Shown one piece after another: positions 3,001 through 61,957 of a stretch of 64,000 bases of DNA. Numbering within the stretch: the stretch's first letter is position 1; the number at the start of each line of letters is the position of its first letter. The translations under genes were made by a program, and so were the position numbers. The stretch is from the NCBI GenBank assembly GCA_000018565.1, contig CP000875.1, positions 4,975,199-5,039,198 on the forward strand. The letters are read 5' to 3'. This DNA is from Herpetosiphon aurantiacus DSM 785. GTDB taxonomy: Bacteria > Chloroflexota > Chloroflexia > Chloroflexales > Herpetosiphonaceae. A model generated the notes under the pieces. The model was not told the DNA's origin and made no database searches. It was given only the letters and a program-made list of their open reading frames with translations.

Positions 3001-5838
3001 CGTTTTCAGGCGATCGGCGGGCGGCGCTATGAGATCAACCCGCACGATCACAAAGCTTACAAGCAGCTTCTCAAGGAAGCCTTTGGAGGCGCCAATGCGC
3101 CGTGCCGCGGCATCGTCTACCTGTGGGGAGGCAAGTCCGGCCGCGACGCCGAGGCGAGCCTCGATGCCTTGCTGTCCGCGCAGGATTTCACCGCCACTGC
3201 ACCGCTGTTTCTCCTGCAAGCCATCGGCTATGCCGGTTGGCGCGATTACCCCCGGCTTTGGATCGTCACCCGCGGCGCCGATGCTGCCAGCCCAAACGAG
3301 GCGGTGGCCGTGGCACAAACTCCGCTGACCGGGCTGTCCAACGTTATCAGCCACGAGTTTGCCCAGTTGGAGTGCGTGCGAATCGACCTGAGTGCCGCAC
3401 CGGGTCTGGACGAAGCCTCGGAACTCTTCAATGAAATCTGCTGCGGCAAGGACGATCGGGTCGCCATCCGCCCCGGCCAGCGTTTCGTGGCTCGGCTCAG
3501 CCGTGGGCTTGGCGTCGCCGGCTCGGCGGAGCGACCACAGACCCTCGCGCGGGCCGGCGACCAGCCATTCGGCCTGGATGCCTCGCCGCCAGGCTCGCTG
3601 GATCGGCTGGCGATCCGCGCCATGGCGCGGCAACCGATCGGCCCCGATGATATTGAGATTAAGGTCCGCGCTTGGGGCTTGAACTTCCGCGACGTGCTGA
3701 CCGCCCTCGGCGCTATTCCGGGCAATAGCAGCGAGATCGAGGGCGTGTCTTCATTGCGCGAATGCGCGGGCACGATCGTGGCCCTTGGCGCCAATGTAAC
3801 CGGCTTCACGGTCGGACAGGAAGTGGTCGGCTGGTTCAAGAGCCTGACGGTATCGCACTCAATCTCCACGCAGAACCTGATCGTCGCCAAACCCGACCAC
3901 CTGACCCTTGAGCAAGCCGCGGCGCTGCCTTTCGCCATTCTGACCGCTTACTACTCGTTGGTTGTCACAGGCCGGCTGTCCAAGGGCGAACGCGTCCTGA
4001 TCCACTCTGCGACTGGCGGCGTCGGCCTAGCAGCGATCCAGATCGCCCAGCACGTGGGCGCTGAAATCTTCGCCACCGCCGGTTCGCCCGAAAAGCGGGC
4101 CTTGCTGCGCGAGCTTGGCGTGCCCCACGTGATGAACTCGCGCTCGCTGGACTTCGCCGACGAGGTGCGCGAAGCCACCAACGGCGAGGGCATCGACGTG
4201 GTGCTGAATTCGCTGGCCGGCGATTATATCAAGGAAAGCCTCAACCTGCTGCGCCACCGCGGCCGCTTTATCGAGATCGGCAAACGCGACTACTACGAGG
4301 ACAACAAACTCGGCATGCGGCCGTTTTTGAAGAACCTGACCTTCTCGCTGGTCGATCTTGATAAGTTGCGCGAAGAGCCGGAGATGATCGGGGCGATCTT
4401 CCGCGAAGCGATGGCTTTGTTTGCCGGCGACTCCCTGCTCACCCGCCACTGCCGCGTTTTTTCGATGGGACAGGTCGCCGACGCCTACCGGATGATGGCC
4501 CAGGCCCGGCACATCGGCAAGATCGTTATCAGAATCGACGACGATGAAGAGCTTCCGATCGTCGCGGCTCGGCCCGCCGCAGCGGCCTGGGCTGCCGGCA
4601 CCTACCTGATCACTGGCGGCCTCGGGGGGCTGGGCATAGCCGTCGCCCGCTGGCTGGTCGAACGCGGGGTACGCCATCTGGTTCTTCTCGGGCGCAGCCG
4701 GCCGGGGGCGGCCGCCAGCGCGGCGGTCGAGGATCTGCGCGCGCTCGGGGCGACCGTGCAAGTGTCCCAAGCCGATGTCGCCCAGCCCGCCGCGCTGGCG
4801 GCCCTGTTCGACGATATCGATGCGAAGATGCCCCCGTTGCGCGGAGTCATCCACGCCGCCGGCGTGCTCGATGACGGCGTGCTGCTTCAGCTCACCCCCG
4901 AGCGTTTCAAAACCGTCATGGACCCCAAGGTCACCGGATCTTGGAATCTCCACATCCTGACTCGCGATCGGACGCTCGACCACTTTATTCTGTTCTCGTC
5001 GGCGGCGGCTACGCTTGGCTCGCCCGGCCAGGGCAACTACGCTGCAGCCAATGCCTTCCTCGACGGGCTGGCCCATTACCGCCGCGCCCAAGGGTTGCCG
5101 GCGCTAGCGATCAACTGGGGGCCGTGGGCCGACGTGGGCTTGGCAGCGGCCCAGGCCAATCGCGGCGAGCGCATCGCTTACCGCGGCATGAAAAGCATGA
5201 CGCCCGCCGAGGGCCTGGCGGCGCTGGAGCGCCTGATCCGTGCCAACCCGGTCCAGGCCAATGTGCTGCCCTTCAACCTGCGCCAGTGGCTGCAATACTA
5301 TCCCAAGGCGGCCGCCTCATCACTGTTCCGGCGCCTAGTCGAAGAACTCGACCAAAGTGCCAGCGAGCAGCCAGCGCAGACCCGGCTTCGCCCGCTGTTG
5401 GAGGAAGCGCCGCCCGAGCAGCGCCTGGCGATCATGGAAACCCATATCGCCAAGCTGGTCCAGCAGGTGTTGCGCATTCCCACCTCGGCACTTGACTCGC
5501 AGACCCCGCTGGGCAGTATGGGCCTTGACTCACTGATGGCGCTTGAACTCAGGAACCTCCTTGAAGACAGCGTGGGTCTGAGTTTCCCTGTCACGTTGAT
5601 CTGGAACCATCAATCAATCGCCGCCCTGTCCTCCCATCTGATCGAGCGTATGCAGATTTCGCTGGCGTCGGCGGAGGAGCCGGACGCCTTCGCAAGCGAC
5701 GATCTGGCTGCCGCACCCGAGCTTGAAGTCAGCGACGATCTGGCTGTGCTGCTGTCGGCGATCGGTGAGCTTTCGATGGATGAGCTTCAGCACGCCCTCG
5801 ATATCGAGCCATTGGCTCAAGGTGAGATCGATGAGTAA
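1..5838 (+). CDS. Modular type I PKS, fully reducing module M1 (5' truncated by the window edge)
   Basis: The reading frame is open from base 1, so the true start lies upstream. Numbering from base 1 gives 1945 residues. Order: end of a ketosynthase (His55 in HGTGT, His95 in KTNIGHL; the active-site Cys is upstream); acyltransferase (GQGSQ, nucleophile Ser372 in GHSMG, VASHS near 474); dehydratase (His677 in HxxxGxxxxP, Asp844 in DACFQ); enoylreductase (about 1195-1515, with the HSATGGVG nucleotide-binding loop); ketoreductase ([11 protein letters not shown] motif, Tyr1680); ACP with phosphopantetheine Ser1844; and an acidic tail of about 55 residues that looks like a C-terminal docking segment. 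A KS-AT-DH-ER-KR-ACP module extends the chain and fully reduces it to a methylene. The LDD motif indicates a B-type KR. VASHS resembles the methylmalonyl-type YASHS motif, but substrate choice is uncertain. All its motifs are canonical, unlike the rest of the window. Confidence 0.96.
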
Positions 5839-15223: not shown

Positions 15224-15224
15224 C

Positions 15225-38519: not shown

Positions 38520-38608
38520 ACCATCTCTGGCGCGCAGGTCAAGCGGCGGTGGCGCACCACCGTCCACGATGGAGCAATGCGATGACTTTGGAAATGAGGG
38601 ATCTATGA
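38516..38608 (+). CDS. 30-residue mini-ORF bridging genes 5 and 6 (copy 1)
   Basis: ATG 38516 overlaps the stop of gene 5 (ATGA) and the TGA at 38606-38608 overlaps the ATG of gene 6 (ATGA), so the frame exactly fills the 85-base space between the two PKS genes. The predicted peptide begins MNHLWRAGQAA and ends NAMTLEMRDL. A second copy with the same length and the same double overlap lies at 52542. The last residues and the DNA around the stop resemble the end of gene 3 (EMGDL, then ATGA). It may be a remnant of a PKS C-terminus that now couples translation across the gap. No known family is recognised, and expression of the peptide is not shown by sequence. Confidence 0.45.
   Translation: MNHLWRAGQAAVAHHRPRWSNAMTLEMRDL
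38596..38604 (+). promoter_or_regulatory. Ribosome binding site that decides the start of gene 6
   Basis: GAGGG at 38596-38600 sits 4 bases before ATG 38605. The frame is open from ATG 38512, but the extra 31 codons would overlap gene 5 and match no other PKS start here, whereas MTDRAAYD followed by YDTAVAIVGM matches the heads of genes 3, 4, 5 and 7. Confidence 0.65.
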
Positions 38609-50600: not shown

Positions 50601-52545
50601 TTGGCTGGCTGCGCCATCGTGGAAACGCAGCATTCAGGCCGGCAGCGCCGGAGTTGCGGCGCGTTTGGCCGAGCCGCACTGCTGGCTGATGCTGGCGGAT
50701 GGCGAGGGGCTGGCCGCCGAGTTGACTGCCTGGCTGGAGCAGCGCGGCCAGACCGTGATCACGGTCATGCCCGGCGCGAGCTTCGCGGCACTCGGTCAGG
50801 CGCGCTATATGCTCCGCCCGACCAGCCGCGAGGATTTCACGGCCTTGTTGCAAACGTTGGAGCGCCAAGGCCACGCCCCCAGCCGCGTCGTCCATTGCTG
50901 GCTGTTCGGTGCCCAGGAGGATGCCGATTCGCTCAGCGATGCTACTCTGACCGCAACACTAGATGTCGGCTTCTACAGCCTGCTGGCACTGGCCCAAGCG
51001 CTGGGCGACCAGGGTGTCGAGTGGTGCGAGATCAACGCCGTCACTGCGGCCATGCAGGAGGTCACCGGACAGGAGAATCTTCAGGTAGCGGCATCAACGG
51101 TGATCGGGCCATGCAAGATTATTCCGCAGGAATATCCCAACTTAACGGCGCGCTCGATCGATATCCTGTTGCCAGCTGGGGCTGCCGAACGCACGGCGCT
51201 GGTCGCACAGCTGGGCACTGAACTGGCCACTCCGCCGACCGGTGACCAGGTCGCCTTCCGCGGCGCCCATCGCTGGGTCCAGGTTTTCGAACCAATTACC
51301 GTGCCAGCAGCGCCCGCGTCGCATCCGCGCTTGCGGACGGGCGGGGTGTACCTGCTGACCGGCGGCCTGGGCGGGATCGCCCTCGGCTTGGCCCGCGACC
51401 TGGCGGCGACGCTTCAGGCGAAACTGGTGCTGGTCAACCGCTCCGGCCTGCCCGACCGCGCCACCTGGCCGGCGTTGCTCGAACGCGACGGTGCCGAGCA
51501 GGGCGTGGGGCGGCGCATCCAGCAGGTGCTGGACTTGGAGGTGCTGGGCGCGGAGGTGCTGGTCATCCAGGCCGACGTCACCGACACGGTGGCGATGGCG
51601 CGGGCGGTGGCTGAGGCCCAGGCACGCTTCGGGACGATCCACGGTGTGCTCCACACGGCCGGCGTGCCCGGCGTGGGCTTGATGCAGCTTAAGGATGCCG
51701 CGACGGCAGCGGCTGAGCTGGCGCCCAAAGTCCAAGGCACGCTGGCGCTGACCAGCGCGTTAGCTGGGATTCCACTCGATTTCTTGGTGTTGTTCTCGTC
51801 GGTGACGTCGGCGACGGGCGGCGGGCCGGGCCAAGTGGCCTACTGTGCCGCCAACGCCTTCCTCGACGCCTACGCCCGCAAGCACGCCACCGACCACGGT
51901 CAGACCGTCGCGGTGAGCTGGGGCGAGTGGCTGTGGGATGCCTGGTCTGAGGGCTTGCAGGGCTTCGCGCCCGAGGTCCAGGCGCGCTTCCGCGCCTACC
52001 GCACGACCTTCGGGATCACCTTTGACGAAGGCGCCGACATTCTACGCCGCATCCTGGCCGAGCCGCTGGCCCACGTGTTTGTGACCAGCGAGGATCTGCT
52101 GCCGATGGCCGAGCGGAGTCGGCGCGAATCGGCGGCTCGCGGCCTCGAAGAATTACAGCGGCAGCAGGAAGCGCGGCCGACCTATCCGCGCCCCGAGGTC
52201 GGCACCTCGTTTGTCGAGCCGCAAAGCGTGATTGAACAGCAGATCGCCGGTATCTGGAGCACGGTGTTAGGCATCGCACCGATCGGCCTCCACGACAATT
52301 TCTTCGACTTGGGCGGCAACTCGCTACTGGGTCTGGATCTCTTTTCTCGGATCCGCAAGGCACTGAAGGTCGACAAGCTGCCGGCCTACGTACTCTACGA
52401 GGCTCCGACCGTCGCCACCCAGGCCGCCTATCTCACACCGGCGCCTGAGGCAGCCCTGGTTACGGAAGCGGTGCCGGATCTTGATGTCAAAATCCGGCAA
52501 AAGGTTAACCGGTTTAAACAGCAATCGTCGCTGGAGGATGCATGA
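38605..52545 (+). CDS. Trimodular type I PKS, modules M9, M10 and M11 (KS-AT-KR-ACP three times)
   Basis: From ATG 38605 it encodes 4646 residues, the largest protein here. M9: N-type KS Cys185; AT Ser647 in GYSLG; alpha KR Tyr1330; ACP Ser1480. M10: C-type KS Cys1715; AT Ser2179 in GYSVG; alpha-type KR with an unusual HGAGHLDQ in place of HAAG plus six variable residues, Tyr2874; ACP Ser3020. M11: C-type KS Cys3256; AT Ser3720; beta KR Tyr4413 with TGGLGGIA (Ala4259); ACP Ser4573. All three ATs have GVGDHY and HAFHS (malonyl type). M10 is the extra module compared with genes 4, 5 and 7. Its KS-AT is nearly identical to those of M8 and M11, but its KR-ACP is the most divergent of the alpha group. 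The C-tail IRQKVNRFKQQSSLEDA repeats that of gene 5, and the head MTDRAAYD repeats in gene 7. Predicted output is three beta-hydroxy units. Confidence 0.96.
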   Translation: MTDRAAYDAAYDTAVAIVGMSGRFPGASTVDAFWQNLTAGERSIRTLGDAELLAAGVDPELLRDPQYVKAGAFVDDIELFDAAFFGYTPREAEVMDPQHRLFLECAWQALEQAGYDPDGFRGSIGVFAGSATSSYRVHNIHTNPEIAESVGGLQLAVGNDSDSLASTVSYKLNLRGPSVAVQTFCSTSLVAVHMACQSLLTYECNIALAGGAAITVPQGVGYLYQEGGILSPDGHCRTFDAKAQGSVMGSGVGVVTLKRFEDALNDGDTIYAVIRGSTVNNDGIRKVGYTAPGLNGQSAVITIAQNRAEVDPDTVSYIEAHGTATPLGDSIELAALIKAFERGTERKQFCALGSVKPNIGHLDRASGVTGLIKTTMALHHRQLPPNLDFETPSPDIDLANSPFYVNTQLRDWPADGAAPRRAGVNSFGLGGTNVHVVLEEAPAPAPVAPARPAQLLVLSAKTATALEAMTDNLAAYLAGAPADLADVAFTLQAGRTRFNHRRAFVCESAADAAQVLQTRDLRRITTVEQSGRNRPVAFVFPGVGDHYAGMAKTLYATEAVFREAVDQCAELLAPRLGQDLRAALYPADQPAAAAAHTLFAATAASSRVAGALHQTALAQPAVFVVEYALVQLLASWGIRPQALLGYSLGEYVAATVAGVLSLEDALTLVAKRAQWIQAQPHGAMLAVSLGVEAIQPYLNTEVALAVVNSPMTCVLAGPHAALELVKIHLEEDEVASRWLETSHAFHSPMLAPVAAELTALVRTLRLQTPKIPYISNVTGTWITDAEATDPGYWARHMVETVQFADGVGTLLADAQLTLLEVGPGQALGSFIRQHPACGRDRFGQIVATLPGAAEATNDLVALLNGLGRLWLAGVPIDWAGLHGKRPRRRVPLPTYPFERKRFWIDAAIMPAALAAGERLRGRHADVTDWFYRPDWAPAALGVPAAPGHWLILPDAHGLGKAVASSLRAAGHTVTLATAGPADTTLMVPQIPIDPTDAAAYELLLDTLRADGGLPSHILWLGGLTPLDSALTGPARFQAAQATGYYDLLQLAQALVTRVIDEAVQLLVVTAGMQAVGANAIPVAEHATLLGLATVIGQENVTIRVRSVDLAMADDAAAELLAAECLASGDALRVAYRDGQRLEERYQPIRLETPGSSVLQSGGVYVITGGLGGVGLVLAEHLARTAQAKLVLVGRQGLPERAAWDAWLREHGADDATSQRIQRVRMIEAAGGTVEVMAADVADPEQLRGVFAETEARFGTLYGVLHAAGISDSQAYLPLETIGPKECEWHFQPKAYGLYALEAALDDRSLDFCVVFSSVSSVLGGLGFAGYAAANSFMNAFTQRHNRTHAVPWVSVNWDTWHLRAGQHDVIGATVAQYEMSPAEGADAFERAAATRNEPVIINSTGDLDARIRQWVRLESVREQPEREREAAGSTQQAVSVSVPLRSTSEYEQRITAVWQHVLGIETIGIHDNFFDLGGNSLIALQLIARLKKEFKTQVPAVAIFEAPTISALVQYMLPDAPVVAPADALLVERRQRVRQTAEQDGIAIIGMVGRFPGASTVDALWQNVADGVEAFTRFTDEELRAAGVPADLINDTNYVKVRPVLHNDISLFDAAFFGYTPREAEFLDPQQRLFQECAWEALEQAGYDTQRYPGLVGVFGGTNVNAYLYRLVEDPELRDLMSESITLQNDKDALATYVSYKLNLRGPSFSIQTYCSTSLVATHLACRSLRAGDCDIALAGGVSIRVPVNTGYLFQEGDQGAPDGRCRTFDALAEGTNFGDGVAIVVLKRLADALADGDTIHAVIRGSAINNDGGLKVGYTAPSVVGQAAVVQAALADANLAADAISYVEAHGTATKLGDPIEVAALTKAYRTMTDKVGFCAISSVKPNIGHLDRASGATGLIKTVMALKHNVIPPTLHFQAPNPEIDFASSPFFVPTALTPWTRNGTPRRAGVNSLGVGGTNAHVIVEEAPQVGPSGPGRAAELLVLSAKTATALEAATTNLAAHLEEQPMVNLADVAHTLQVGRRVFEHRRVVVARNVADAVGLLRSGDARRVLTLAQKPTSRGVAFVFPGVGDHYVGMAEGLYATEGVFRATVDRCCALLTPLLGSPIRKEIYPDGGAPVSAGIDLRAMLRENATPRSAGRLHQTAWAQPAVFVVEYALVQLLASWGIRPQALLGYSVGEYVAAAVAGVLSLEDALTVVAKRAQWIQAQPAGSMLAVSLGADAIGAYVGGAVALAVVNSPMTCVLAGPQAALEAVKTRLDGDEVASRWLETSHAFHSPMLAPVQAELTALAGTLRLQAPRIPYISNVTGTWITDAEATDPGYWARHMVETVQFADGVGTLLADAQLVVLEVGPGQALGSFIRQHPACGRDRFGQIVATVRGMTDTSDDLEVLLSALGRLWLHDVVVDWASFRGSEVRQRIPLPTYPFERQRFWVEPRSYVRTPVQEAAVIGRKPNIADWFYTPVWEAQPLPAKGSAQPAGPYLVFVDEQGFGAQVVGRLESNGVTVIKVRQGGAFAQLDATSFAVRPDIRDDYAVLFSALQTNRLLPQAIVHLWNVASNARVSADEAGFGACQVYGFYSLLHLAQAVGGIDLESTLPITVFSNSTQPVTGNERLYAEQSPSAVTCRVIGQENPAVFCRNVDICVPEQAGAEADQLAMLLEQELLVPSQDIAVAYREGRRFVQHYRADRLEPISRAVPAPLRMGGVYLITGGLGGIGTAIAGYLAEKAQAKLVLLGRTPLPPREEWDGLAVARGPEDGLVQKIAKIRAMEAHGAEVLTLSADVGDPAQLSAALAEIRRRFGALHGVVHGAGHLDQSGFQLIQDVGHEPCEAHFKPKVYALYHLEAMLRDQELDFCLLLSSVSSVLGGLGYVGYTAANYFMDIFTHRLRQSPSNRWISVNWDTWHLKAGQHDGATVAQYELFPFEGVDAFGRILERAPVQIINSTGDLDTRIKQWVLLESIRSNAASSSPAASHERPAIDTQYVPVNSEYERRIAAVWQQVLGIGQIGIDDNFFDLGGNSLTALQLISRLKKEFKTQISAVAIFEAPTIRAMAQYLMPDAPPAVDLAETLLVQRRQRVRQTAEQDGIAIIGMAGRFPGASNVDEFWDNLANGVEAFTAFTDAELLAAGVLYEQVHDLNYVKRRPILKEDVTLFDAAFFGYTPREAEFLDPQQRLFHECAWEALEQAGYDTQRYPGLVGIYGGANLNTYLMQLAFDPDVARNFTDSVFLENDKDALTTNVSYKLNLRGPSFAVQTYCSTSLVATHLACRSLRAGDCDIALAGGVSIRVPVNTGHLFQEGDQVSPDGSCRTFDAQAAGTTWADGVAVLVLKRLADALADGDTIHAVIRGSAINNDGGLKVGYTAPSVVGQAAVVQAALADANLAADAISYVEAHGTATKLGDPIEVASLTKAYRTMTDKVGFCAISSVKPNVGHLDRAAGATGLIKTVMALKHNVIPPTLHFQTPNPEIDFASSPFFVPTALTPWTRNGTPRRAGVNSLGVGGTNAHVIVEEAPQVGPSGPGRAVELLVLSARTPSALETMTVNLTAYLEGQPTVNLADVAHTLQVGRRVFEHRRVVVARDATSAAALLRSGDARRVLTLAQKPTSRGVAFVFPGVGDHYVGMAEGLYATEGVFRATVDRCCALLTPLLGSPIRKEIYPDGGAPVSAGIDLRAMLREDATPRSAGRLHQTAWAQPAVFVVEYALVQLLASWGIRPQALLGYSVGEYVAATVAGVLSLEDALTLVAKRAQWIQAQPAGSMLAVSLSAEAIGAYVGGAVALAVVNSPMTCVLAGPQAALEAVKTRLDGDEVASRWLETSHAFHSPMLAPVQAELTALAGTLRLQAPRIPYISNVTGTWITDAEATDPGYWARHMVETVQFADGVGTLLADAQLVVLEVGPGQALGSFIRQHPACGRDRFGQIVATVRGMTDTSDDLEVLLSALGRLWLHDVVVDWAGFRGSEVRQRIPLPTYPFERQRFWIEPNLNSRLAAAHRPIRRPDIGDWLAAPSWKRSIQAGSAGVAARLAEPHCWLMLADGEGLAAELTAWLEQRGQTVITVMPGASFAALGQARYMLRPTSREDFTALLQTLERQGHAPSRVVHCWLFGAQEDADSLSDATLTATLDVGFYSLLALAQALGDQGVEWCEINAVTAAMQEVTGQENLQVAASTVIGPCKIIPQEYPNLTARSIDILLPAGAAERTALVAQLGTELATPPTGDQVAFRGAHRWVQVFEPITVPAAPASHPRLRTGGVYLLTGGLGGIALGLARDLAATLQAKLVLVNRSGLPDRATWPALLERDGAEQGVGRRIQQVLDLEVLGAEVLVIQADVTDTVAMARAVAEAQARFGTIHGVLHTAGVPGVGLMQLKDAATAAAELAPKVQGTLALTSALAGIPLDFLVLFSSVTSATGGGPGQVAYCAANAFLDAYARKHATDHGQTVAVSWGEWLWDAWSEGLQGFAPEVQARFRAYRTTFGITFDEGADILRRILAEPLAHVFVTSEDLLPMAERSRRESAARGLEELQRQQEARPTYPRPEVGTSFVEPQSVIEQQIAGIWSTVLGIAPIGLHDNFFDLGGNSLLGLDLFSRIRKALKVDKLPAYVLYEAPTVATQAAYLTPAPEAALVTEAVPDLDVKIRQKVNRFKQQSSLEDA
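43942..45917 (+). repeat. C-type KS-AT block, copy 3 (M10)
   Basis: Offset 9412 from copy 2. It differs in a linker patch (RNVADAVGLLRSG where others have RDATSAAALLRSG) and in the segment before LHQTAWAQPAVF (REN where M11 and M13 have RED). Confidence 0.9.
48565..50544 (+). repeat. C-type KS-AT block, copy 4 (M11)
   Basis: Offset 4623 from copy 3. The first codons (WADGVAVLVLKRL) and one linker patch (ARTPSALETMTVNL) are diverged; the rest follows the other copies closely. Confidence 0.9.
51313..51966 (+). repeat. Beta-type KR catalytic block, copy 3 (M11)
   Basis: Same boundaries as copy 1. The cofactor loop Ala codon is at 51379 and the catalytic Tyr at 51841. It shares RTGGVYL with M13 where M6 and M8 have RMGGVYL. 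Confidence 0.85.
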
Positions 52546-52634
52546 ACCATCTCTGGCGCGCAGGTCAAGCGGCGGCGGCAACGCTTCGCCAAGCAGGGAG
52601 CAATGCGATGACTTTGGAAATGAGGGATCTATGA
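52542..52634 (+). CDS. 30-residue mini-ORF bridging genes 6 and 7 (copy 2)
   Basis: It has the same design as the copy at 38516: ATGA overlap with the end of gene 6, ATGA overlap with the start of gene 7, and 30 codons. The peptide again begins MNHLWRAGQAA and ends SNAMTLEMRDL. The middle eight or so codons differ (AATLRQAG-like against VAHHRPRW-like) without any change of length or frame. Retention of frame despite local divergence argues weakly for a constraint, either on the peptide or on ribosome passage. It could equally be a passive passenger of the gene duplication. Confidence 0.45.
   Translation: MNHLWRAGQAAAATLRQAGSNAMTLEMRDL
52622..52630 (+). promoter_or_regulatory. Ribosome binding site that decides the start of gene 7
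   Basis: GAGGG at 52622-52626 sits 4 bases before ATG 52631, identical in layout to the gene 6 start. The upstream in-frame ATG at 52481 lies inside gene 6 and would add 50 codons without PKS similarity. Confidence 0.65.
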
Positions 52635-55600
52635 CCGATAGAGCAGCATATGATGATGCATACGACACAGCCATTGCCATCGTAAGCATGGCCGGGCGCT
52701 TCCCAGGCGCGTCGAATGTTGATGCGTTCTGGCAGAATCTGGTCGCTGGCGTGCGCTCAATCCTCCCGATTGCCGACGAGGATATGCTGGCCATGGGCAT
52801 GGATCCCGCAGTGCTTCGCGACCCGCAGTATGTCAAGGCTGGCGCGTTTGTCGACGATGTCGATCTGTTCGACGCCAGTTTCTTCGGCTACACGCCGCGC
52901 GAGGCCGAGATCATCGATCCCCAGTACCGGCTATTTTTGGAATGTGCTTGGGAAGGACTGGAACGGGCTGGCTATGACCTGGAAACCTACCGCGGAGCCA
53001 TCGGCATGTTCGCCGGCTCCGGCCACCCGACGTATGCTCTGGAGAATATCGCCTCCAACCCAAGCATCAGGGAGTGGGCCGGTGACCTTCAGGTTAATAT
53101 CAACAACGAAAAGGACTCGCTAGCGACGATCGTCTCGTACAAGCTGAACCTGCGCGGGCCGAGCGTGGCAGTGCAGACGTTCTGCTCGACCTCGCTGGTC
53201 GCGGTCCACATGGCCTGCCAGAGCCTGCTGACCTACGAGTGTAATATCGCGCTTGGCGGCGGCTCGGCGCTGAATCTGCAACAGGGCCTCGGGTATTTCT
53301 ACCAAGAAGGCGGCATCTTGTCGCCGGACGGCCGCTGCCGCACGTTCGACGCCCAGGCCCAGGGCAGCGTGATGGGCAGCGGCGTCGGCGTCGTCGTGCT
53401 CAAGCGCTTCGAGGACGCGCTCAACGATGGCGACACGATCTACGCCATCATCCGCGGGTCGGCGATCAACAACGATGGCATCCGCAAGGTCGGCTATACC
53501 GCCCCCGGTCTGGGCGGCCAGTCATCGGTGATCTCCACTGCGCATCAGCGCGCCGGGGTTGCGCCAGAGTCAATCGGCTATATCGAGGCCCACGGTACGG
53601 CCACGCCGCTCGGCGACTCGATCGAGCTGGCCGCCTTGATCAAAGCCTTCGAGCGTAAAACCACTCGCCAGCAATTCTGCGCGCTGGGGTCGGTCAAGCC
53701 GAATGTCGGCCACCTCGACCGGGCGTCGGGGGTGACGGGCCTGATCAAAACGACCATGGCCCTGTATCACCGCCAGCTGCCGCCCAACCTTGATTTCGAG
53801 CGCACCAGCCCGGATATCGATCTGGCCAGCAGTCCGTTCTACGTCAACACGCAACTGCGCGAGTGGGCCGCTGAGGCCGGGAGCGTGCGACGGGCCGGCG
53901 TCAACTCGTTTGGTCTGGGCGGCACCAACGTCCACGTCGTGCTGGAGGAAGCACCCGCACCGGCGCCCGTGGCTCCGGCTCGCCCGGCCCAGTTGCTGGT
54001 GCTGTCAGCCAAGACCGCGACCGCCCTGGAGGCCATGACCGACAACCTAGCCGCCTATCTGGCCGGCGCCCCTGCCGATCTGGCCGACGTGGCCTTTACC
54101 CTCCAGATCGGCCGCACGGGTTTCAACCACCGGCGGATCGTCGCCGGAACCAGTGCCGCCGATGTTCGTGCCGCCCTGGAGCAGCGCGATGGGCGGCGCG
54201 TGCTGAGCGCCACGCAGACTGGACGCAACCGGCCGGTGGCGTTTGTGTTCCCCGGCGTGGGCGACCACTATGCCGACATGGCCAAGACCCTGTACGCGAC
54301 CGAGGCGGTCTTCCGCGAGGCGGTTGATCAGTGTGCCGAATTGCTGGCCCCACGCCTTGGCCAGGATCTGCGCGCCGCCCTGTATCCCGCCGATCAGCCA
54401 GCCGCAGCCGCGGCCCACACGCTGTTTGCGGCTACTGCGGCGAGCAGTCGTGTGGCGGGAGCGCTGCATCAGACGGCGCTGGCCCAGCCGGCGGTGTTTG
54501 TGGTCGAGTATGCGTTAGTCCAACTGCTGGCGAACTGGGGTATCCGGCCGCAAGCGCTGCTCGGCTATAGTCTGGGCGAGTACGTGGCGGCGACGGTCGC
54601 CGGCGTGCTGAGCCTGGAGGATGCCCTGACCCTGGTTGCCATGCGCGCCCAGTGGATTCAGGCCCAGCCGCATGGCGCGATGCTGGCCGTCTCGCTGGGC
54701 GCCGAGGCCATCCAGCCCTACCTGAATACCGAGGTGGCGCTGGCGGTGGTCAACAGCCCAATGACCTGCGTCCTGGCCGGTCCGCAGGCGGCGTTGGAGG
54801 CGGTCAAAATCCGTCTGGAAGAAGATGAGGTGGCCAGCCGCTGGCTGGAGACGAGCCACGCGTTCCACTCGCCGATGCTGGCGCCGGTGGCGGCCGAACT
54901 GACCGCGCTGGTGCGCACGCTGCAGCTCCAGACACCCAAAATTCCCTATATCTCCAATGTGACTGGCACGTGGATCACCGACGCCCAGGCGACCGACCCG
55001 AGCTATTGGGCACGGCATATGGTCGAAACGGTGCAGTTTGCCGATGGCGTCGGCACCTTGCTGGCCGATGCTCAGCTGGCGCTGCTCGAAGTGGGACCGG
55101 GCCAAGCGCTGGGGTCGTTTATCCGCCAGCATCCGACCTGCGGGCGTGACCGGTTTGGCCAGATCGTCGCGACCTTGCCAGTGGCGGCCGAGGCCACTAA
55201 TGATCTGGTGGCGCTGCTCAACGGGCTAGGGCGGTTGTGGCTAGCTGGCGTCCCCGTCGATTGGGCCGGTTTCCACGGCGGCGCGGCTCGCCAGCGCGTC
55301 CCGCTGCCGACGTATCCCTTTGAGCGCAAGCGCTTCTGGATCGATGTGCAACGGCCGGAGAAGGCCGCCGCCCTCGCCGAGACGACCGCGGGCCGCAAAC
55401 CCGACATCGCCGACTGGTTCTATCAGCCAGCGTGGGTGCGCGCGGAACTGCTGGGTGCACCGGTCAAGCCGGGCTGCTGGCTGGTGTTTGCCGACCAGCA
55501 CGGTCTGGGCAACGCTGTCGGCCAGCGGTTGATACTGGCCGGCCATCGCGTCGTGCAGATCGAGGCCGGATCAGATTTCGTCCAGTTCGACGAGCAGCAC

Positions 55601-58600
55601 TTTCAGATCCGACCGGGCCAGATTGACGATTACCAGAACCTTTTGAAGACGGCGATCGGCGCGGGATACCTGCCGACCCACGTCCTCCATCTGTGGAGTC
55701 TGGCGCCGGCGGCGGGTCGGGCGACGGGTTCCGGGCGTTTCGCAGCCATTCAGGAGTACGGCTTCACCAGCTTGCTAAACCTGGCCTTCGCCCTCGGCAG
55801 CCAGCTGATCGACGATCCGGTTGAGCTGCTGGTGGCGACTGCCAGTATCCAGGCCGTCGATCCGAGCGACCTCCCCGATGCCGACAACGCCACAATCCTT
55901 GGTGCCTGCACTGTGATCGGCCAGGAAAACCTTTCTATCACGGTCCGCAACATCGACCTAAGCCTGCCAGCTGACCTGAACAGTGCCGAACTGCCGGTCG
56001 CCGCGCTGGTCGCCGAGTGTCAGAAGCAAAACAGCGACCTCCACGTCGCTTATCGCGGCAATCAGCGATTTGTCCAGCAGTACCAGCCCTTGCGGCTAGA
56101 GGTGCCGGAGTCGCCGGCGGTGCGGCCGGGCGGGGTGTATGTGATCACGGGCGGCCTGGGCGGGGTCGGACTGGTGCTGGCGGAGCATCTGGCGCGGACG
56201 GCGCAGGCGAAGCTGGTGCTGGTCGGCCGGCAGGGCTTGCCGGAGCGGGCGGCCTGGGACGCGTGGCTGCGCGAACACGGCGCGGACGACGCCACGAGCC
56301 AGCGTATCCAGCGGGTGCGGATGATCGAAGCCGCCGGTGGCAGCGTTCTGGTTGTTGCCGCCGATGTGGCCATGGTGGCCGGTTTCCAGCGCGTGATTGC
56401 GGCGACCGAGCAGCAGTTCGGTTCGATCAACGGCGTCTTGCACGCCGCCGGTATCTCGGATAGCACCGCGTACAACCTAATCCAGTTATTGGAACAGGCG
56501 ACCTACGCCGCTCACTTCCAGCCGAAGGTGTACGGGTTGTACGCACTGGAAGCGGCGCTGGGCGACCGGCCGCTGGACTTCTGTGTGCTGTTTTCCTCGA
56601 TCTCGGCGGTGCTGGGTGGGTTGGGCTTCGCGGGCTACGCGGCGGCCAACTGCTTCATCGATGCCTTTACCGAGCGCCACAACCGCACGCACGCAGTGCC
56701 TTGGGTCAGCGTCAACTGGGATACTTGGCAACTCAAGGTCGGCCAGCACGATGTGATCGGCGCGACCGTCGCCCAGTACGAGATGAGTCCGGCCGAGGGC
56801 GCGGCGGCCTTCGAGCGCGTCGCTGCGGCCCGGGGCCACACCCAGATTGTCAACTCGACCGGCGACCTCGACGCCCGCATTCGCCAGTGGGTCCGCCTGG
56901 AATCGGTGCGCGCCGACGCCGCCGCAGCGGCCGACACCGCCGTGCAAACGGTGCCCCGCGGCACACCGCTTTCCAGCAGCGAGTATGAGCAGCGGGTGGC
57001 TATGGTCTGGCAGCAGATTCTGGGTATCGACGAGGTGGGCATCGACGACAACTTCTTTGACCTGGGCGGCAATTCGTTGGTCGCGCTCCAATTAGTGACG
57101 CGGCTCAAGAAAGAGCTGAAAACCCAGATCCCGATGGTCGCCTTGTTTGAGGCGCCGACGGTGCGGGCAATGTCGCAATTGCTGCGCCCCGAAACCGCGC
57201 CCGATGTCGACCAGCAGGCGCTGCTCTTGCAACAGCGCCGCGAGCAAACGCGCCAGACGGTGCAGGCGGATGGCCTCGCGATCATCGGCATGGTCGGGCG
57301 TTTTCCCGGTGCCTCCAGCGTGGAGGAGCTCTGGCAAAATCTGCATAACGGTGTCGAGTCGACAACCCACTTCACCGATGAGGAACTCGTTGCTTCCGGG
57401 GTCAATCCCCTGGAAATCCGGCACCCCGACTACGTCAAGTCGCGGCCGATCCTGAAGGATGATGTCAGCTTGTTCGATGCGGCGTTTTTCGGCTACACGC
57501 CGCGCGAGGCGGAGTTTCTCGACCCGCAGCAGCGCTTGTTCCACGAGTGCGCTTGGGAGGCCCTGGAGCAGGCCGGCTACGATACTCAGCGCTATCCCGG
57601 CCTGGTCGGCGTTTTTGGCGGCACCAATATGAACGCCTACCTCAACCGCATCGCCCGCGACCCACGCTCCGACGGCCATATCACTGAGATCATCACCCTT
57701 GAGAACGACAAGGACGCGCTGGCGACCAACGTCGCCTACAAGTTGAACCTGCGCGGGCCAAGCTTCGCGGTGCAGACGTTCTGCTCGACCTCGCTGGTCG
57801 CCACCCACTTGGCCTGCCGCAGCCTGCGCCACGGCGAGTGCGATATCGCCCTCGCTGGTGGCGTGTCGGTCCGTGTCCCGGTCAACACCGGCTATCTGTA
57901 TGAAGAAGGCGATCAGGTGTCACCGGACGGCCACTGCCGGACGTTCGATGCCAACGCGGGCGGAGCGACCTTCGGCGACGGGGTGGCGATCGTGGTACTG
58001 AAGCGGCTGGCGGACGCGCTGGCCGACGGCGACACTATCCACGCCGTGATCCGTGGGTCGGCGATCAACAACGACGGGGGGCTGAAGGTCGGCTACACCG
58101 CACCCAGCGTGGTCGGGCAGGCGGCGGTGGTGCAGGCGGCGCTGGCTGATGCCAATCTGGCCGCCGATGCCATCTCGTATGTCGAGGCCCACGGCACCGC
58201 CACCAAACTCGGCGACCCGATCGAAGTGGCGGCATTGACCAAGGCCTATCGCACGACCACCGACAAAGTTGGCTTCTGCGCGATCAGTTCGGTCAAACCG
58301 AACGTCGGCCACCTCGACCGGGCGGCTGGCGCGACTGGTTTGATCAAGACGGTTATGGCCCTGAAGCACAACGTGATTCCGGCCACGCTGCACTTCCAGA
58401 CGCCCAACCCCGAGATCGACTTCGCCAGCAGCCCGTTCTTTGTGCCGACCGCGCTCACGCCGTGGACGCGCAATGGCACACCGCGCCGGGCCGGGGTCAA
58501 CTCGCTGGGTGTGGGTGGAACCAATGCCCACGTCATCGTGGAGGAAGCACCGCAGGTCGGGCCAAGTGGCCCCGGTCGGGCGGTCGAACTGCTGGTGCTG

Positions 58601-61600
58601 TCGGCCAAAACGGCGACCGCGCTGGAGGCAGCGACCACGAATCTGGCGGCCCATCTGGAGGAGCAGCCGACGGTGAATCTGGCTGATGTGGCCCACACGC
58701 TCCAGGTTGGGCGGCGGGTGTTTGAGCACCGCCGGGTCGTGGTCGCCCGCGATGCGACGAGCGCTGCGGCGCTGTTGCGGAGCGGCGATGCGCGGCGGGT
58801 GCTGACGCTGGCACAAAAGCCGACCAGTCGGGGTGTGGCCTTCGTGTTCCCGGGTGTGGGCGACCACTACGTCGGGATGGCGGAGGGATTATACGCGACC
58901 GAGGGAGTATTCCGCGCGACGGTTGACCGCTGCTGCGCGCTGCTGACGCCACTGCTCGGATCGCCCATTCGGAAGGAAATTTACCCCGATGGTGGTGTTC
59001 CCGCCCAGACCGGCGTCGACCTGCGTGCTATGCTGCGCGAGGACGCGACGCCGGGGTCGGCGGGGCGCTTGCACCAGACGGCGTGGGCACAACCGGCGGT
59101 GTTCGTGGTGGAGTATGCGTTGGCGCAGCTGCTGGCGAGCTGGGGCATCCGGCCGCAGGCGTTGCTCGGCTACAGCGTGGGTGAGTACGTGGCGGCGACG
59201 GTCGCTGGGGTGTTGAGCCTGGAGGATGCCTTGACCCTAGTCGCCAAGCGTGCCCAGTGGATTCAGGCCCAGCCGGCCGGATCGATGCTGGCGGTGAGCT
59301 TGAGTGCCGAGGCGATCGGTACGTATGTGGGCGGCGCGGTGGCGCTGGCGGTGGTCAATAGCCCGATGACCTGTGTCCTGGCCGGTCCCCAGTCCGCGTT
59401 GGAGGCAGTGAAAACCCGCTTGGACGGTGATGAGGTGGCCAGCCGCTGGCTGGAAACGAGCCACGCCTTCCACTCGCCGATGTTGGCGCCGGTGCAGGCC
59501 GAGCTGACCGCACTGGCTGGTACGCTGCGGCTCCAAGCACCGCGCATCCCGTATGTCTCCAACATCACCGGCACCTGGATCACCGATGCGGAAGCGACCG
59601 ACCCGGGCTACTGGGCACGGCATATGGTCGAGACGGTGCAGTTTGCGGACGGCGTTGGCACGCTGCTGGCCGATGCCCAGCTCGTGGTGCTGGAAGTGGG
59701 GCCGGGGCAGGCGCTGGGGTCGTTTATCCGGCAGCACCCGGCCTGCGGGCGCGACCGGTTCGGCCAGATCGTGGCCACGGTGCGTGGGATGACGGACACG
59801 AGCGATGACCTGGAGGTGTTGTTGAGCGCGCTGGGGCGGCTGTGGCTACACGATGTGGTGGTCGATTGGGCCGGCTTCCGTGGCAGCGAAGTCCGCCAGC
59901 GTATCCCGTTGCCCACCTACCCCTTCGAGCGCCAGCGCTTCTGGATCGAGCCTGATCTGACCCCGCGGCCGGGTAGCGGGCCGAAACTTCGACGATTTGA
60001 TGCGGGCGACTGGTATGCCGTGCCCTCGTGGAAGCGCGCGGTCGCCCATAATATCGTCAACAACGGCTCGCTGACCGAGCCGGGGTGCTGGCTGGTGCTG
60101 GTGGATGGCGAAGGACTGGCCACCAGGTTGACCGCTTGGCTGGAAGATCGCGGCCAGACCGTGATCGCGGTCACACCTGGCGCGGCCTTCACCCAGCACA
60201 GCGCAACGGCGTATACCGTGCGTCCCGCCAGCCGTGAGGACTTCACTGCCTTGTTGCAGACGCTGGAACGCCAAGGCCAGACGCCTAGCCGCGTTGTCCA
60301 CGCCTGGTTGGCGACCGCCGGCGACCCCGCCGCGGACGAAACCGCCGCCGGATTCGATCATACGCTCCAGCACGGCTTCTACAGCCTGCTGGCGCTGGCC
60401 CAAGCGCTGGGCGACCAGGGTGTCGAGTGGTGCGAGATCAACGCCGTCACCGTAGCTATGCAGGAGGTCACTGGACAGGAAGATCTGCGCATCGCCGCCG
60501 CCACGGTGATCGGGCCGTGCAAGATTATTCCGGTCGAGTATCCCAATCTGACCGCGCGCTCCATCGATATCTTGCTGCCGGCCAGCCCCGCTGAGCGGGC
60601 GACCCTGGTCGCGCAGCTGGGCGCCGAACTGGCCACTCCGCCGACCGGTGACCAGGTCGCCTTCCGCGGCGCCCATCGCTGGGTTCAGATGATGGAGCCG
60701 GTTGCGCTGCCGGCAGTGCCCGCGTCGCATCCGCGCTTGCGGACGGGCGGGGTGTACCTGCTGACCGGCGGCCTGGGCGGGATCGCCCTCGGCTTGGCCC
60801 GCGACCTGGCGGCGACGCTGCGGGCCAAGCTGGTGCTGGTCAACCGCTCCGGCCTGCCCGACCGTGCCACCTGGCCGGCGCTGCTCGAACGCGACGGTGC
60901 CGAGCAGGGCATGGGGCGGCGCATCCAGCAGGTGCTGGATCTGGAGGCGCTGGGCGCGGAGGTGCTGGTCATTCAGGCCGACGTCACCGATGCGGTGGCG
61001 ATGGCGCGGGCGGTGGCTGAGGCCCAGGCACGCTTCGGGACGATCCACGGTGTGCTCCACACGGCCGGCGTGCCCGGCGTGGGCTTGATGCAGCTTAAGG
61101 ATGCCGCGACGGCAGCGGCTGAGCTGGCGCCCAAGGTTCAGGGCACGCTGGCGCTGACTCGGGCGTTGGCCGGGGTGCCGCTGGATTTCTTGGTGTTGTT
61201 CTCGTCGGTGACGTCGGCGACGGGCGGCGGGCCGGGCCAAGTGGCCTACTGTGCCGCCAACGCCTTCCTCGACGCCTACGCCCGCAAGCATGCCACCGAC
61301 CACGGTCAGACCGTCGCGGTGAGCTGGGGCGAATGGCTATGGGATGCCTGGTCCGAGGGTTTGCAAGGCTTCGCACCCGAGGTTCAGGCAGAATTCCGGG
61401 CCTACCGCAAGAACTTTGGGATCACCTTCGCCGAAGGCGCCGAGGCGCTGCGCCGCATCCTGGCCTGCCAGATTCCGCACCTGTTTGTGACGACCGAAGA
61501 CCTGTTGAATATGTTTGAGGGCAGCAAACGCTCGGCGGCGCGGACGCAAGCCGAGCCAACCGAACAACAGGCGCGAACCCGTTATCCGCGGCCCGAGGTC

Positions 61601-61957
61601 GGCTCGTTTGTCGAGCCGCAAGGCGAGTTGGAGCAAAGCATCGCGCGGGTCTGGGCTGATGTCTTGGCGATCGAGGCGATTGGTGCCAACGATAACTTCT
61701 TCGATCTCGGTGGCAACTCGCTGCTGGGAATTGGTCTGATCAATCAACTGCGCCGAAATCTCAAATTGGAGAAACTGCCGGCACACGTCCTGTACGAGGC
61801 TCCGACCGTCGCCACACTGGCGGACTATATCAATCAATCGACACACCCCACGGGTTCAAGCGCGGTTCATCTTCCCGATCTTGACGAGGAAGCCGACAAG
61901 CGCGAAGAACAGTTCGATTTCTTCAAAGACAGAGCTCAAATGGAGGAGCTGACATGA
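52631..61957 (+). CDS. Bimodular type I PKS, modules M12 and M13 (KS-AT-KR-ACP twice)
   Basis: From ATG 52631 it encodes 3108 residues. M12: KS Cys185 in QTFCSTS; AT Ser647 in GYSLG; alpha KR Tyr1336; ACP Ser1482. M13: C-type KS Cys1718; AT Ser2182 in GYSVG; beta KR Tyr2873 with TGGLGGIA (Ala2719); ACP Ser3030. Both ATs carry HAFHS, so malonyl-CoA is predicted. The first KS is atypical in its N-terminal half: it has VSMAGRFPG where the others have GMAGRFPG, and IDPQYRL where the others have MDPQHRL. The M12 KR is a mosaic, with a structural half unlike the other alpha KRs and a cofactor-binding part nearly identical to them. The tail (DKREEQFDFFKDRAQMEEL) differs from genes 5 and 6 and overlaps gene 8 by ATGA. 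Predicted output is two beta-hydroxy units. Confidence 0.96.
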   Translation: MTDRAAYDDAYDTAIAIVSMAGRFPGASNVDAFWQNLVAGVRSILPIADEDMLAMGMDPAVLRDPQYVKAGAFVDDVDLFDASFFGYTPREAEIIDPQYRLFLECAWEGLERAGYDLETYRGAIGMFAGSGHPTYALENIASNPSIREWAGDLQVNINNEKDSLATIVSYKLNLRGPSVAVQTFCSTSLVAVHMACQSLLTYECNIALGGGSALNLQQGLGYFYQEGGILSPDGRCRTFDAQAQGSVMGSGVGVVVLKRFEDALNDGDTIYAIIRGSAINNDGIRKVGYTAPGLGGQSSVISTAHQRAGVAPESIGYIEAHGTATPLGDSIELAALIKAFERKTTRQQFCALGSVKPNVGHLDRASGVTGLIKTTMALYHRQLPPNLDFERTSPDIDLASSPFYVNTQLREWAAEAGSVRRAGVNSFGLGGTNVHVVLEEAPAPAPVAPARPAQLLVLSAKTATALEAMTDNLAAYLAGAPADLADVAFTLQIGRTGFNHRRIVAGTSAADVRAALEQRDGRRVLSATQTGRNRPVAFVFPGVGDHYADMAKTLYATEAVFREAVDQCAELLAPRLGQDLRAALYPADQPAAAAAHTLFAATAASSRVAGALHQTALAQPAVFVVEYALVQLLANWGIRPQALLGYSLGEYVAATVAGVLSLEDALTLVAMRAQWIQAQPHGAMLAVSLGAEAIQPYLNTEVALAVVNSPMTCVLAGPQAALEAVKIRLEEDEVASRWLETSHAFHSPMLAPVAAELTALVRTLQLQTPKIPYISNVTGTWITDAQATDPSYWARHMVETVQFADGVGTLLADAQLALLEVGPGQALGSFIRQHPTCGRDRFGQIVATLPVAAEATNDLVALLNGLGRLWLAGVPVDWAGFHGGAARQRVPLPTYPFERKRFWIDVQRPEKAAALAETTAGRKPDIADWFYQPAWVRAELLGAPVKPGCWLVFADQHGLGNAVGQRLILAGHRVVQIEAGSDFVQFDEQHFQIRPGQIDDYQNLLKTAIGAGYLPTHVLHLWSLAPAAGRATGSGRFAAIQEYGFTSLLNLAFALGSQLIDDPVELLVATASIQAVDPSDLPDADNATILGACTVIGQENLSITVRNIDLSLPADLNSAELPVAALVAECQKQNSDLHVAYRGNQRFVQQYQPLRLEVPESPAVRPGGVYVITGGLGGVGLVLAEHLARTAQAKLVLVGRQGLPERAAWDAWLREHGADDATSQRIQRVRMIEAAGGSVLVVAADVAMVAGFQRVIAATEQQFGSINGVLHAAGISDSTAYNLIQLLEQATYAAHFQPKVYGLYALEAALGDRPLDFCVLFSSISAVLGGLGFAGYAAANCFIDAFTERHNRTHAVPWVSVNWDTWQLKVGQHDVIGATVAQYEMSPAEGAAAFERVAAARGHTQIVNSTGDLDARIRQWVRLESVRADAAAAADTAVQTVPRGTPLSSSEYEQRVAMVWQQILGIDEVGIDDNFFDLGGNSLVALQLVTRLKKELKTQIPMVALFEAPTVRAMSQLLRPETAPDVDQQALLLQQRREQTRQTVQADGLAIIGMVGRFPGASSVEELWQNLHNGVESTTHFTDEELVASGVNPLEIRHPDYVKSRPILKDDVSLFDAAFFGYTPREAEFLDPQQRLFHECAWEALEQAGYDTQRYPGLVGVFGGTNMNAYLNRIARDPRSDGHITEIITLENDKDALATNVAYKLNLRGPSFAVQTFCSTSLVATHLACRSLRHGECDIALAGGVSVRVPVNTGYLYEEGDQVSPDGHCRTFDANAGGATFGDGVAIVVLKRLADALADGDTIHAVIRGSAINNDGGLKVGYTAPSVVGQAAVVQAALADANLAADAISYVEAHGTATKLGDPIEVAALTKAYRTTTDKVGFCAISSVKPNVGHLDRAAGATGLIKTVMALKHNVIPATLHFQTPNPEIDFASSPFFVPTALTPWTRNGTPRRAGVNSLGVGGTNAHVIVEEAPQVGPSGPGRAVELLVLSAKTATALEAATTNLAAHLEEQPTVNLADVAHTLQVGRRVFEHRRVVVARDATSAAALLRSGDARRVLTLAQKPTSRGVAFVFPGVGDHYVGMAEGLYATEGVFRATVDRCCALLTPLLGSPIRKEIYPDGGVPAQTGVDLRAMLREDATPGSAGRLHQTAWAQPAVFVVEYALAQLLASWGIRPQALLGYSVGEYVAATVAGVLSLEDALTLVAKRAQWIQAQPAGSMLAVSLSAEAIGTYVGGAVALAVVNSPMTCVLAGPQSALEAVKTRLDGDEVASRWLETSHAFHSPMLAPVQAELTALAGTLRLQAPRIPYVSNITGTWITDAEATDPGYWARHMVETVQFADGVGTLLADAQLVVLEVGPGQALGSFIRQHPACGRDRFGQIVATVRGMTDTSDDLEVLLSALGRLWLHDVVVDWAGFRGSEVRQRIPLPTYPFERQRFWIEPDLTPRPGSGPKLRRFDAGDWYAVPSWKRAVAHNIVNNGSLTEPGCWLVLVDGEGLATRLTAWLEDRGQTVIAVTPGAAFTQHSATAYTVRPASREDFTALLQTLERQGQTPSRVVHAWLATAGDPAADETAAGFDHTLQHGFYSLLALAQALGDQGVEWCEINAVTVAMQEVTGQEDLRIAAATVIGPCKIIPVEYPNLTARSIDILLPASPAERATLVAQLGAELATPPTGDQVAFRGAHRWVQMMEPVALPAVPASHPRLRTGGVYLLTGGLGGIALGLARDLAATLRAKLVLVNRSGLPDRATWPALLERDGAEQGMGRRIQQVLDLEALGAEVLVIQADVTDAVAMARAVAEAQARFGTIHGVLHTAGVPGVGLMQLKDAATAAAELAPKVQGTLALTRALAGVPLDFLVLFSSVTSATGGGPGQVAYCAANAFLDAYARKHATDHGQTVAVSWGEWLWDAWSEGLQGFAPEVQAEFRAYRKNFGITFAEGAEALRRILACQIPHLFVTTEDLLNMFEGSKRSAARTQAEPTEQQARTRYPRPEVGSFVEPQGELEQSIARVWADVLAIEAIGANDNFFDLGGNSLLGIGLINQLRRNLKLEKLPAHVLYEAPTVATLADYINQSTHPTGSSAVHLPDLDEEADKREEQFDFFKDRAQMEELT
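57977..59955 (+). repeat. C-type KS-AT block, copy 5 (M13)
   Basis: Offset 14035 from copy 3. A patch near 58990-59035 (GVPAQTGVDLRAML) is specific to this copy; the rest is close to M6 and M8. Confidence 0.9.
60719..61372 (+). repeat. Beta-type KR catalytic block, copy 4 (M13)
   Basis: Same boundaries as copy 1. The cofactor loop Ala codon is at 60785 and the catalytic Tyr at 61247. Confidence 0.85.
61942..61948 (+). promoter_or_regulatory. Ribosome binding site of gene 8, inside the end of gene 7
   Basis: GGAGGAG lies 5 bases before ATG 61954, which overlaps the gene 7 stop as ATGA (61954-61957). Confidence 0.6.

Follow-up and report, generated by a model that had tools for sequence, protein, structure and literature searches.

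The gene cluster considered here belongs to Herpetosiphon aurantiacus DSM 785, a predatory soil bacterium, and extends to both sides of the stretch of DNA analysed (contig CP000875.1, positions 4,975,199 to 5,039,198; 64,000 nucleotides, hereafter the window, whose numbering is continued into the flanks with negative or higher numbers). Its core is a polyketide synthase (PKS) with fourteen consecutive modules, M2 to M15, each with ketosynthase (KS), acyltransferase (AT), ketoreductase (KR) and acyl carrier protein (ACP) domains, and on balance these modules would probably draw predominantly on hydroxymalonyl-ACP, giving a mostly contiguous polyol rather than a 1,3-polyol. The operon for hydroxymalonyl-ACP within the cluster, the GYSxG motif of the ATs, the association of the two in other genomes and the gene order of the butyrolactol A cluster lead together to the prediction of a mostly contiguous polyol with mass steps of C2H4O2, not C2H4O. 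An earlier note on the window had foreseen hydroxyls on alternate carbons and a repeating C2H4O increment; our reading departs from it in both respects, since the operon and GYSxG in 14 of 14 ATs argue against the former and predict C2H4O2 steps in place of the latter. Tentatively, we go further and propose that all fourteen modules may use hydroxymalonyl, so that a chain resembling a carbohydrate, hydroxylated on up to 28 contiguous carbons, would carry a 4-hydroxyphenylalkyl end and a peptide, and would represent a class of products with members in Chloroflexota, cyanobacteria, actinobacteria and other groups, readable from GYSxG and the operon.

The operon and the acyltransferase motifs

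Between M15 and the nonribosomal peptide synthetase (NRPS) genes that follow it there is a complete four-gene operon for hydroxymalonyl-ACP, consisting of a 3-hydroxyacyl-CoA dehydrogenase (71248-72111), a free ACP (72160-72459), an acyl-CoA dehydrogenase (72549-73679) and FkbH (73704-74780; NCBIfam score 276.5 against a cut-off of 146.65); no methyltransferase was found among these genes.

The nucleophile motif of the ATs reads GYS[LV]GEY in M2 to M14, on the forward strand near 7811, 12449, 17183, 21922, 26452, 31185, 35721, 40537, 45133, 49756, 54563, 59168 and 63880 (residue positions of the alignment converted to bases), and that of M15 lies outside the window; GYS[LV]G, not GHSxG, is thus present in 14 of the 14 ATs, and the ATs of M0 and M1 have GHSMG. 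According to Tables 2 and 3 of PMC4207774, the ATs that take ACP-bound extenders, ZmaA (hydroxymalonyl-ACP) and ZmaF (aminomalonyl-ACP), have GYSFG and GYSLG respectively, with hydrophobic residues for carrier recognition, and the same paper gives ZmaK, which takes malonyl-CoA, as having GHSIG, the lid HAFH and Lys at the carrier-recognition site. In M2 to M15 the first carrier-recognition position (-8) is A or S throughout, within the triplets ACR (M2), SSR (M3), ACR (M4) and ASR (the other ATs, of M5 to M15). The malonyl-CoA signature, which by Table 2 of that paper would be GHSxG together with HAFHS, is therefore present in one half, HAFHS occurring in 14 of 14 ATs, and absent in the other, as GYSxG stands in all of them.

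Motif and operon across genomes

In order to place these motifs in a wider frame, relatives of the KS were taken from a genome collection (the best 80 of at least 527 stretches encoding one, which gave 76 loci). FkbH was searched for at E 1e-30 in 43 genomes, coming from 44 of the 76 loci (L075 left out), and it was present in 34 and absent in 9; 37 of the matches were in open frames of less than 500 residues, and 35 were newly fetched with up to 10 kb on each side where the contig allowed. The set then comprised 113 sequences: 71 of the 76 loci, 6 joined loci (longer ones, replacing L011, L013, L016, L017 and L024), the 35 FkbH stretches and the H. aurantiacus cluster.

Among the stretches with the full operon, 37 had GYS ATs only, 9 had both types, 4 had GHS only and 3 had no readable AT, that is to say that a GYS AT was found in 46 of 50 with a readable AT (45 of 49 excluding the H. 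aurantiacus cluster), while the operon-free stretches were GHS only in 32 cases, GYS only in 13 and both in 6; those with a partial operon were GHS only in 2, GYS only in 2 and devoid of ATs in 5. Counted by genome, 43 of 68 combined the full operon with a readable AT on a single stretch, with GYS in 40 of these 43 (39 of 42 excluding H. aurantiacus), and GYS ATs occurred in the fetched stretches of 29 of the 34 FkbH genomes versus 0 of the 9 FkbH-free ones, the former having been sampled more heavily and the 35 additional stretches having been picked for FkbH and not for AT type. From the 207 ATs found, 190 had the motif, and 8 of these were dropped because the lid was unreadable; position -8 was free of D, E, K, R, N and Q in 113 of 113 GYS ATs, whereas 48 of 69 GHS ATs had one of them. 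A tree of 225 ATs requires at least five changes between the two states; GYS appears among the ATs with the HAFHS lid and also, apart from them, in a small group whose lid is TAGHS or IAAHS and which is like ZmaA in having GYSFG (motifs read for two members).

Some individual cases illustrate the arrangement. Four actinobacterial lines, with a layout resembling that of butyrolactol A, combine GYS with HAFHS (or HPFHS) in the KR-only modules that surround the operon and a thioesterase; elsewhere in these lines the ATs are GHS, apart from one GQS and two unreadable nucleophile motifs, and one of the GYS modules of Planomonospora stands on the opposite side of the operon. The six other PKS loci of H. 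aurantiacus itself have 5 GHS ATs, 1 GQS and 0 GYS. Hydroxymalonyl-ACP operons near GYS ATs (L127-L152, L028-L085) are found in cyanobacteria, actinobacteria, Chloroflexota and Gammaproteobacteria, a range that exceeds the four genera named in PMC5355916. As a separate observation, the fragmented genomes G021 (L178, L181, L182) and G024, of the same order, gave 256 and 216 module candidates at first look, and would be a rich source of related lines.

Weighing the extender unit

Several results weigh against the use of hydroxymalonyl-ACP. The lid of M2 to M15 is of the malonyl type, as in ZmaK, and not GAAH or GPFH as PMC4207774 gives for ZmaA and ZmaF; position -6, hydrophobic in the same source for both, is Arg in 108 of 113 GYS ATs; and at -8, where the published rule calls for K or R, just 9 of 69 GHS ATs have one of the two. 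GYS ATs are present in 19 of the 51 stretches without any operon gene; several of these 19 measure no more than 3-4 kb or share a contig with an operon in another fetched locus, but two joined loci of 55-60 kb have GYS without the full operon; conversely, four operon stretches have GHS ATs alone, as do the genomes G082, G088 and G101. The counts are not independent, because the loci are related, some overlap or share a contig, and lineages are shared. In the Tengunoibacter genome the full operon lies about 200 kb from the GYS modules. Finally, ZmaA-AT is the natural solved structure that best matches the M6 AT, but this is also the best match, with a higher score, of a control, a GHS AT from an FkbH-free genome, so that overall domain similarity cannot discriminate the substrate, and the nearest solved structure was dropped as evidence. 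It is because of the lid, the Arg at -6, the control and the operon-free GYS stretches that the predominance of hydroxymalonyl is proposed with only modest confidence and its use by all fourteen modules more cautiously still.

If, on the contrary, all fourteen modules took malonyl-CoA, the product would be a 1,3-polyol with a hydroxyl on alternate carbons and the operon would be vestigial or feed something else. The classical malonyl lid of the 14 ATs agrees with this, as do the two or three consecutive GHS KS-AT-KR-ACP modules that occur without the operon in L174, L176 and cyanobacterial loci; nevertheless, it would leave unexplained GYSxG in 14 of 14 ATs beside an intact four-gene operon inside the cluster, the association of GYS and operon over other genomes, and the butyrolactol A modules which, though annotated AT(m), would by colinearity fall in the part labelled from hydroxymalonyl-ACP (see below), and we regard it as unlikely. 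As for the lid, HAFHS does not rule out an ACP-bound extender, because ATs with GYSxG and HAFHS adjoin the same operon in many other genomes.

A mixed use, in which some of M2 to M15 take hydroxymalonyl and the chain mixes 1,2- and 1,3-diol stretches, would accord with the divergence of the ATs of M2, M3 and M4, which have 66-70% DNA identity to the more uniform set of M5 to M15 and show the triplets ACR, SSR and ACR in place of ASR, and would fit a lid unlike that of the one hydroxymalonyl AT assayed in PMC4207774. All 14 ATs are, however, alike at the two motif positions used, and we give this alternative, too, a low probability.

Returning to predominant hydroxymalonyl use, the favoured course of synthesis would be as follows. 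A chorismate-lyase-like enzyme would supply 4-hydroxybenzoate, to be activated by a ligase with its own ACP; M0 and M1 would lengthen and fully reduce the chain derived from it; and M2 to M15 would add one unit each, halted at the KR stage, for which reason no double bond would be formed. With hydroxymalonyl-ACP from the operon, and not malonyl-CoA, as the extender of most or all of the 14 modules, both new carbons of each module would bear a hydroxyl, so that the product chain would be a long contiguous polyol with up to 28 adjacent hydroxylated carbons, which would then be handed to the NRPS modules and freed by the terminal thioesterase.

Organization of the assembly line

A profile scan of a 180-kb region, with profiles built from the same locus, gave the order ligase, two KS-AT-DH-ER-KR-ACP modules (DH, dehydratase; ER, enoylreductase), fourteen consecutive KS-AT-KR-ACP modules and then the NRPS, with DH and ER in M0 and M1 alone; the Pfam scan of M0 to M3 and of M14 and M15 concurs on the domain order. 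M0 (-7608 to -916, Pfam) and M1 (1..5838, forward strand, Pfam; its KS is cut and its gene begins upstream of the window) are both fully reducing, which corrects the single saturated unit from M1 that had been assumed. The KR-only modules are distributed over a series of forward-strand proteins recognized by open frame, motifs and profile scan: M2 and M3 at 5831..15223 (also by Pfam), M4 at 15236..19984, M5 and M6 at 19981..29253, M7 and M8 at 29250..38519, M9, M10 and M11 at 38512..52545, and M12 and M13 at 52538..61957 (frame open from 52481, with a probable ATG at 52538). The line goes on beyond M13, as had been anticipated, in a protein with M14 and M15 whose 5' part is in the window (61954..64000, forward strand, open frame and Pfam) and which runs to 71235.

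The alignment of M0 to M15 has the KS triad Cys/His/His in 16 of 16 modules and the KR set Lys/Ser/Tyr/Asn (the Ser being the second of FSS) likewise in 16 of 16, and DLGGNS or ELGGNS is found in the 14 ACPs of M2 to M15. The twelve intact modules M2 to M13 which the earlier note described, with their motifs, catalytically equipped KRs and lack of DH or ER, are thus borne out by frames, alignments and profile scan, the run itself being of fourteen, M2 to M15, and not of twelve. Since these modules have a length of about 1,540 residues, there would be hardly any space for an extra domain. The pattern as a whole is far beyond chance. The line is a cis-AT type I modular PKS with KR-only modules: an AT is present in every module, and a trans-acting dehydratase, which would have changed the prediction, was sought and no free one appeared among the flank genes scanned, which did not include every small frame.

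The length of the run was held to be unusual, and so it is among the loci compared. In the six other joined loci the longest consecutive KS-AT-KR-ACP runs are 7 (Idiomarina), 5 (Anaerolineales, then KS-KR-ACP), 5 (Ardenticatenaceae, beside KS-KR), 5 and 1 (the first and second stretches of Tengunoibacter) and at least 4 (a Chloroflexota bin, ended by the contig end), so that the fourteen modules of H. aurantiacus form the longest.

Predicted starter genes and peptide synthetase

Domain annotation of the full locus with its flanks, as the earlier note had advised, brought in the predicted starter genes, M0 to M15, the operon and a seven-module NRPS with a thioesterase, and in these terms the cluster reads as a PKS-NRPS hybrid assembly line. 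Upstream of M0, a gene at -10440 to -9904 resembles those of chorismate pyruvate-lyases: it matches Pfam PF01947 with 65.9 bits (cut-off 22) and the chorismate lyase model of NCBIfam with 39.8, under the cut-off of 175. Next to it is the gene of an AMP-ligase of 712 residues carrying its own ACP (-9838 to -7700). The predicted start of the chain from 4-hydroxybenzoate is suggested by this pair because lyase and ligase resemble the mycobacterial set. On the other side, a C-A-T protein (74896-78276) is followed by a 6,684-residue NRPS (78329-98383; profile scan) with the order A-T-C-A-T-C-A-T-C-C-A-T-C-A-T-C-A-T and a thioesterase at the end (Pfam), and beyond it by a second thioesterase gene, an ABC-2 transporter gene and a DAHP synthase.

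The second NRPS protein opens with A-T, without a C domain, and in the sixth NRPS module the core motif of the A domain is degraded. The core regions of three A domains in the large protein (80000-98383) are identical, and an exact repeat of 2,109 bases joins two of these copies. Read by eye from motif anchors and set against code tables, the first A-domain code would be ornithine-like, the second leucine-like and the last asparagine-like, with the three identical ones left unassigned and the sixth degraded, which may serve as a lead to the peptide.

That the line is silent, or that modules are skipped or reused so that product length departs from module number, would accord with the degraded sixth A domain, with the A-T opening and with the fact that no product of the cluster is named in the parts of PMC3368417, PMC4902038 and PMC6210107 that bear on it. 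The PKS frames of the window are nevertheless free of stop codons, all catalytic residues are kept, and 20 kb of the PKS DNA is 96% identical to that of a second Herpetosiphon genome, all of which makes such an outcome very improbable.

Module repeats and ketoreductase types

The modules look recently multiplied, to judge by the ATs of M6, 8, 10, 11, 13 and 15, which are 93-99% identical in DNA, while the N-terminal halves of the KS of the same modules are 72-83% identical, save for one pair at 93%. More generally, like modules (19981-71235) have much the same KS C-terminal halves, ATs and KRs, and divergent KS N-terminal halves, which suggests gene conversion or selection sparing or targeting that part. 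As near-identical repeats carry a risk of misassembly, the number of fourteen modules rests on the published complete genome; collapsed repeats or iteration were considered too and may alter the apparent number. G001, the second Herpetosiphon genome to contain the cluster, has a contig that ends within the KS of M6, and its contig from the other end stops in the NRPS region, so that it offers no check of the module number.

The KRs (5831-71235) are of two types that alternate along the line, most proteins having them in pairs: in the alignment, M2, 5, 7, 9, 10, 12 and 14 show one type and M3, 4, 6, 8, 11, 13 and 15 the other. This alternation may reflect a stereochemical pattern; a prediction of syn or anti from the KRs was rejected, given that the standard LDD and W markers were not clear and that the solved matches (PksJ) were distant.

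A probable Tn7-like element at glmS

Over about 110 kb the GC content is 0.60-0.67, as against 0.42-0.54 in the DNA to both sides, the high value having already been remarked on in PMC3368417, in the portion concerned with this cluster. Upstream, the order is glmS, tnsA, a weak match to the C-terminal part of a Mu-type transposase at the place of tnsB, and tnsC- and tnsD-like genes; TnsB-like repeats of the type AATAAAGTTGGAAACT lie directly after glmS (about -21790) and, inverted, near 104834-104973, and each end begins with TGTG. A Tn7-like element of about 127 kb (about -23860 to 104990) appears to enclose the whole cluster. The genome G002 has a related element at glmS with different cargo and a perfect 5-bp duplication, TTTAC; no 5-bp target duplication was found in the H. 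aurantiacus genome, where the far flank is rearranged. In G001 the cluster is again at glmS, with 95-97% DNA identity over the stretches compared, the glmS-side end is kept and the far side joins the usual neighbour DNA; tns genes are absent at this site, and TnsD was not found in the genome as a whole. Taken together, the tns genes, glmS, the end repeats and the comparisons with G002 and G001 make a Tn7-like delivery of the cluster at glmS likely.

Implications

If the proposal is true, the rule of thumb that equates HAFHS with malonyl would misread modules of the type of M2 to M15, and the type strain would bear the longest predicted contiguous-polyol line among those compared, its chain, if all fourteen modules take hydroxymalonyl, exceeding with up to 28 hydroxylated carbons the eight of butyrolactol A by a factor of more than three. 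Genome mining could then separate 1,2- from 1,3-polyols across phyla, and a pathway of about 110 kb would be seen to travel together with a Tn7-like element at glmS, and probably as part of it. The two kinds of product would differ in the predicted mass per module, 60.021 Da for hydroxymalonyl versus 44.026 Da for malonyl, and in that the chain would be sensitive to periodate if contiguous and resistant if a 1,3-polyol. For a free acid built from 4-hydroxybenzoate, two C2H4 and 14 units, the calculated composition is C39H70O31 (1034.390) with hydroxymalonyl and C39H70O17 (810.461) with malonyl.

Comparison with known systems

The existence of the cluster was already known. It is the locus described in the relevant part of PMC3368417 as pks-nrps5 of H. 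aurantiacus 114-95T (Haur_04184-Haur_04206), of 112.6 kb, with 16 modules of PKS and 7 of NRPS, a GC content of about 66%, genes for hydroxymalonyl-ACP and fragments of transposons, and labelled there 'Macrolide'; that part of the paper states no module logic, starter, AT specificity or type of transposon. The earlier note was silent on this listing, on the PKS-NRPS hybrid and on the predicted aromatic start. In a literature search with little coverage of subscription journals, PMC3368417 was the only paper to combine Herpetosiphon with hydroxymalonyl, and PMC5355916 the only one to combine 'contiguous polyol' with hydroxymalonyl.

The closest chemical precedent is butyrolactol A of Streptomyces sp. 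TP-A0882, whose cluster, as set out in PMC5355916, has 3-HACDH, ACP, ACAD, FkbH and then TE, the same order as the four genes of the operon here. In the tables of PMC5355916 and PMC5932044 a protein of 3,135 residues with two KS/AT/KR/ACP modules is followed by a KS/DH/KR/ACP protein and then by the operon; its orf 10-17 is annotated in PMC5932044 as KS/AT(m)/KR/ACP twice, and would by colinearity make part of C1-C8, the eight contiguous carbons which labelling (feeding of [1,2-13C2]acetate and [U-13C6]glucose) traces to hydroxymalonyl-ACP. It differs, as far as these tables go, in having four hydroxymalonyl extensions by carbon count, two of them by modules listed without an AT, in another starter and in the lack of an NRPS. 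Zwittermicin A synthase, to the extent given in PMC4207774 and PMC5355916, shares GYSxG (ZmaA and ZmaF, in the former) and a homologous four-gene supply of hydroxymalonyl-ACP (in the latter), but ZmaA differs in the lid, GAAH where the ATs here have HAFHS, and in the carrier motif, MCM where they have A-x-R or S-x-R, and the zwittermicin product is an aminopolyol, as opposed to that of a fourteen-module run.

The loci of Idiomarina xiamenensis (contig 15), Anaerolineales SS36427 and Ardenticatenaceae CFX1 have, as here, a ligase-like domain, a run of GYS KR-only modules and then an NRPS, the first two also with the same operon; no chorismate-lyase homologue was found in any of the three loci, and their runs are of 7, 5 and 5 modules versus 14. 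For the beginning of the line, the start of the mycobacterial phenolic glycolipids (FadD22, Pks15/1) is what we take to be the analogue of the lyase and ligase, given the likeness of the Rv2949c-like lyase and the ACP-bearing ligase of 712 residues, with the difference that the mycobacterial start feeds a long alkyl chain, whereas here it would feed a polyol-peptide line.

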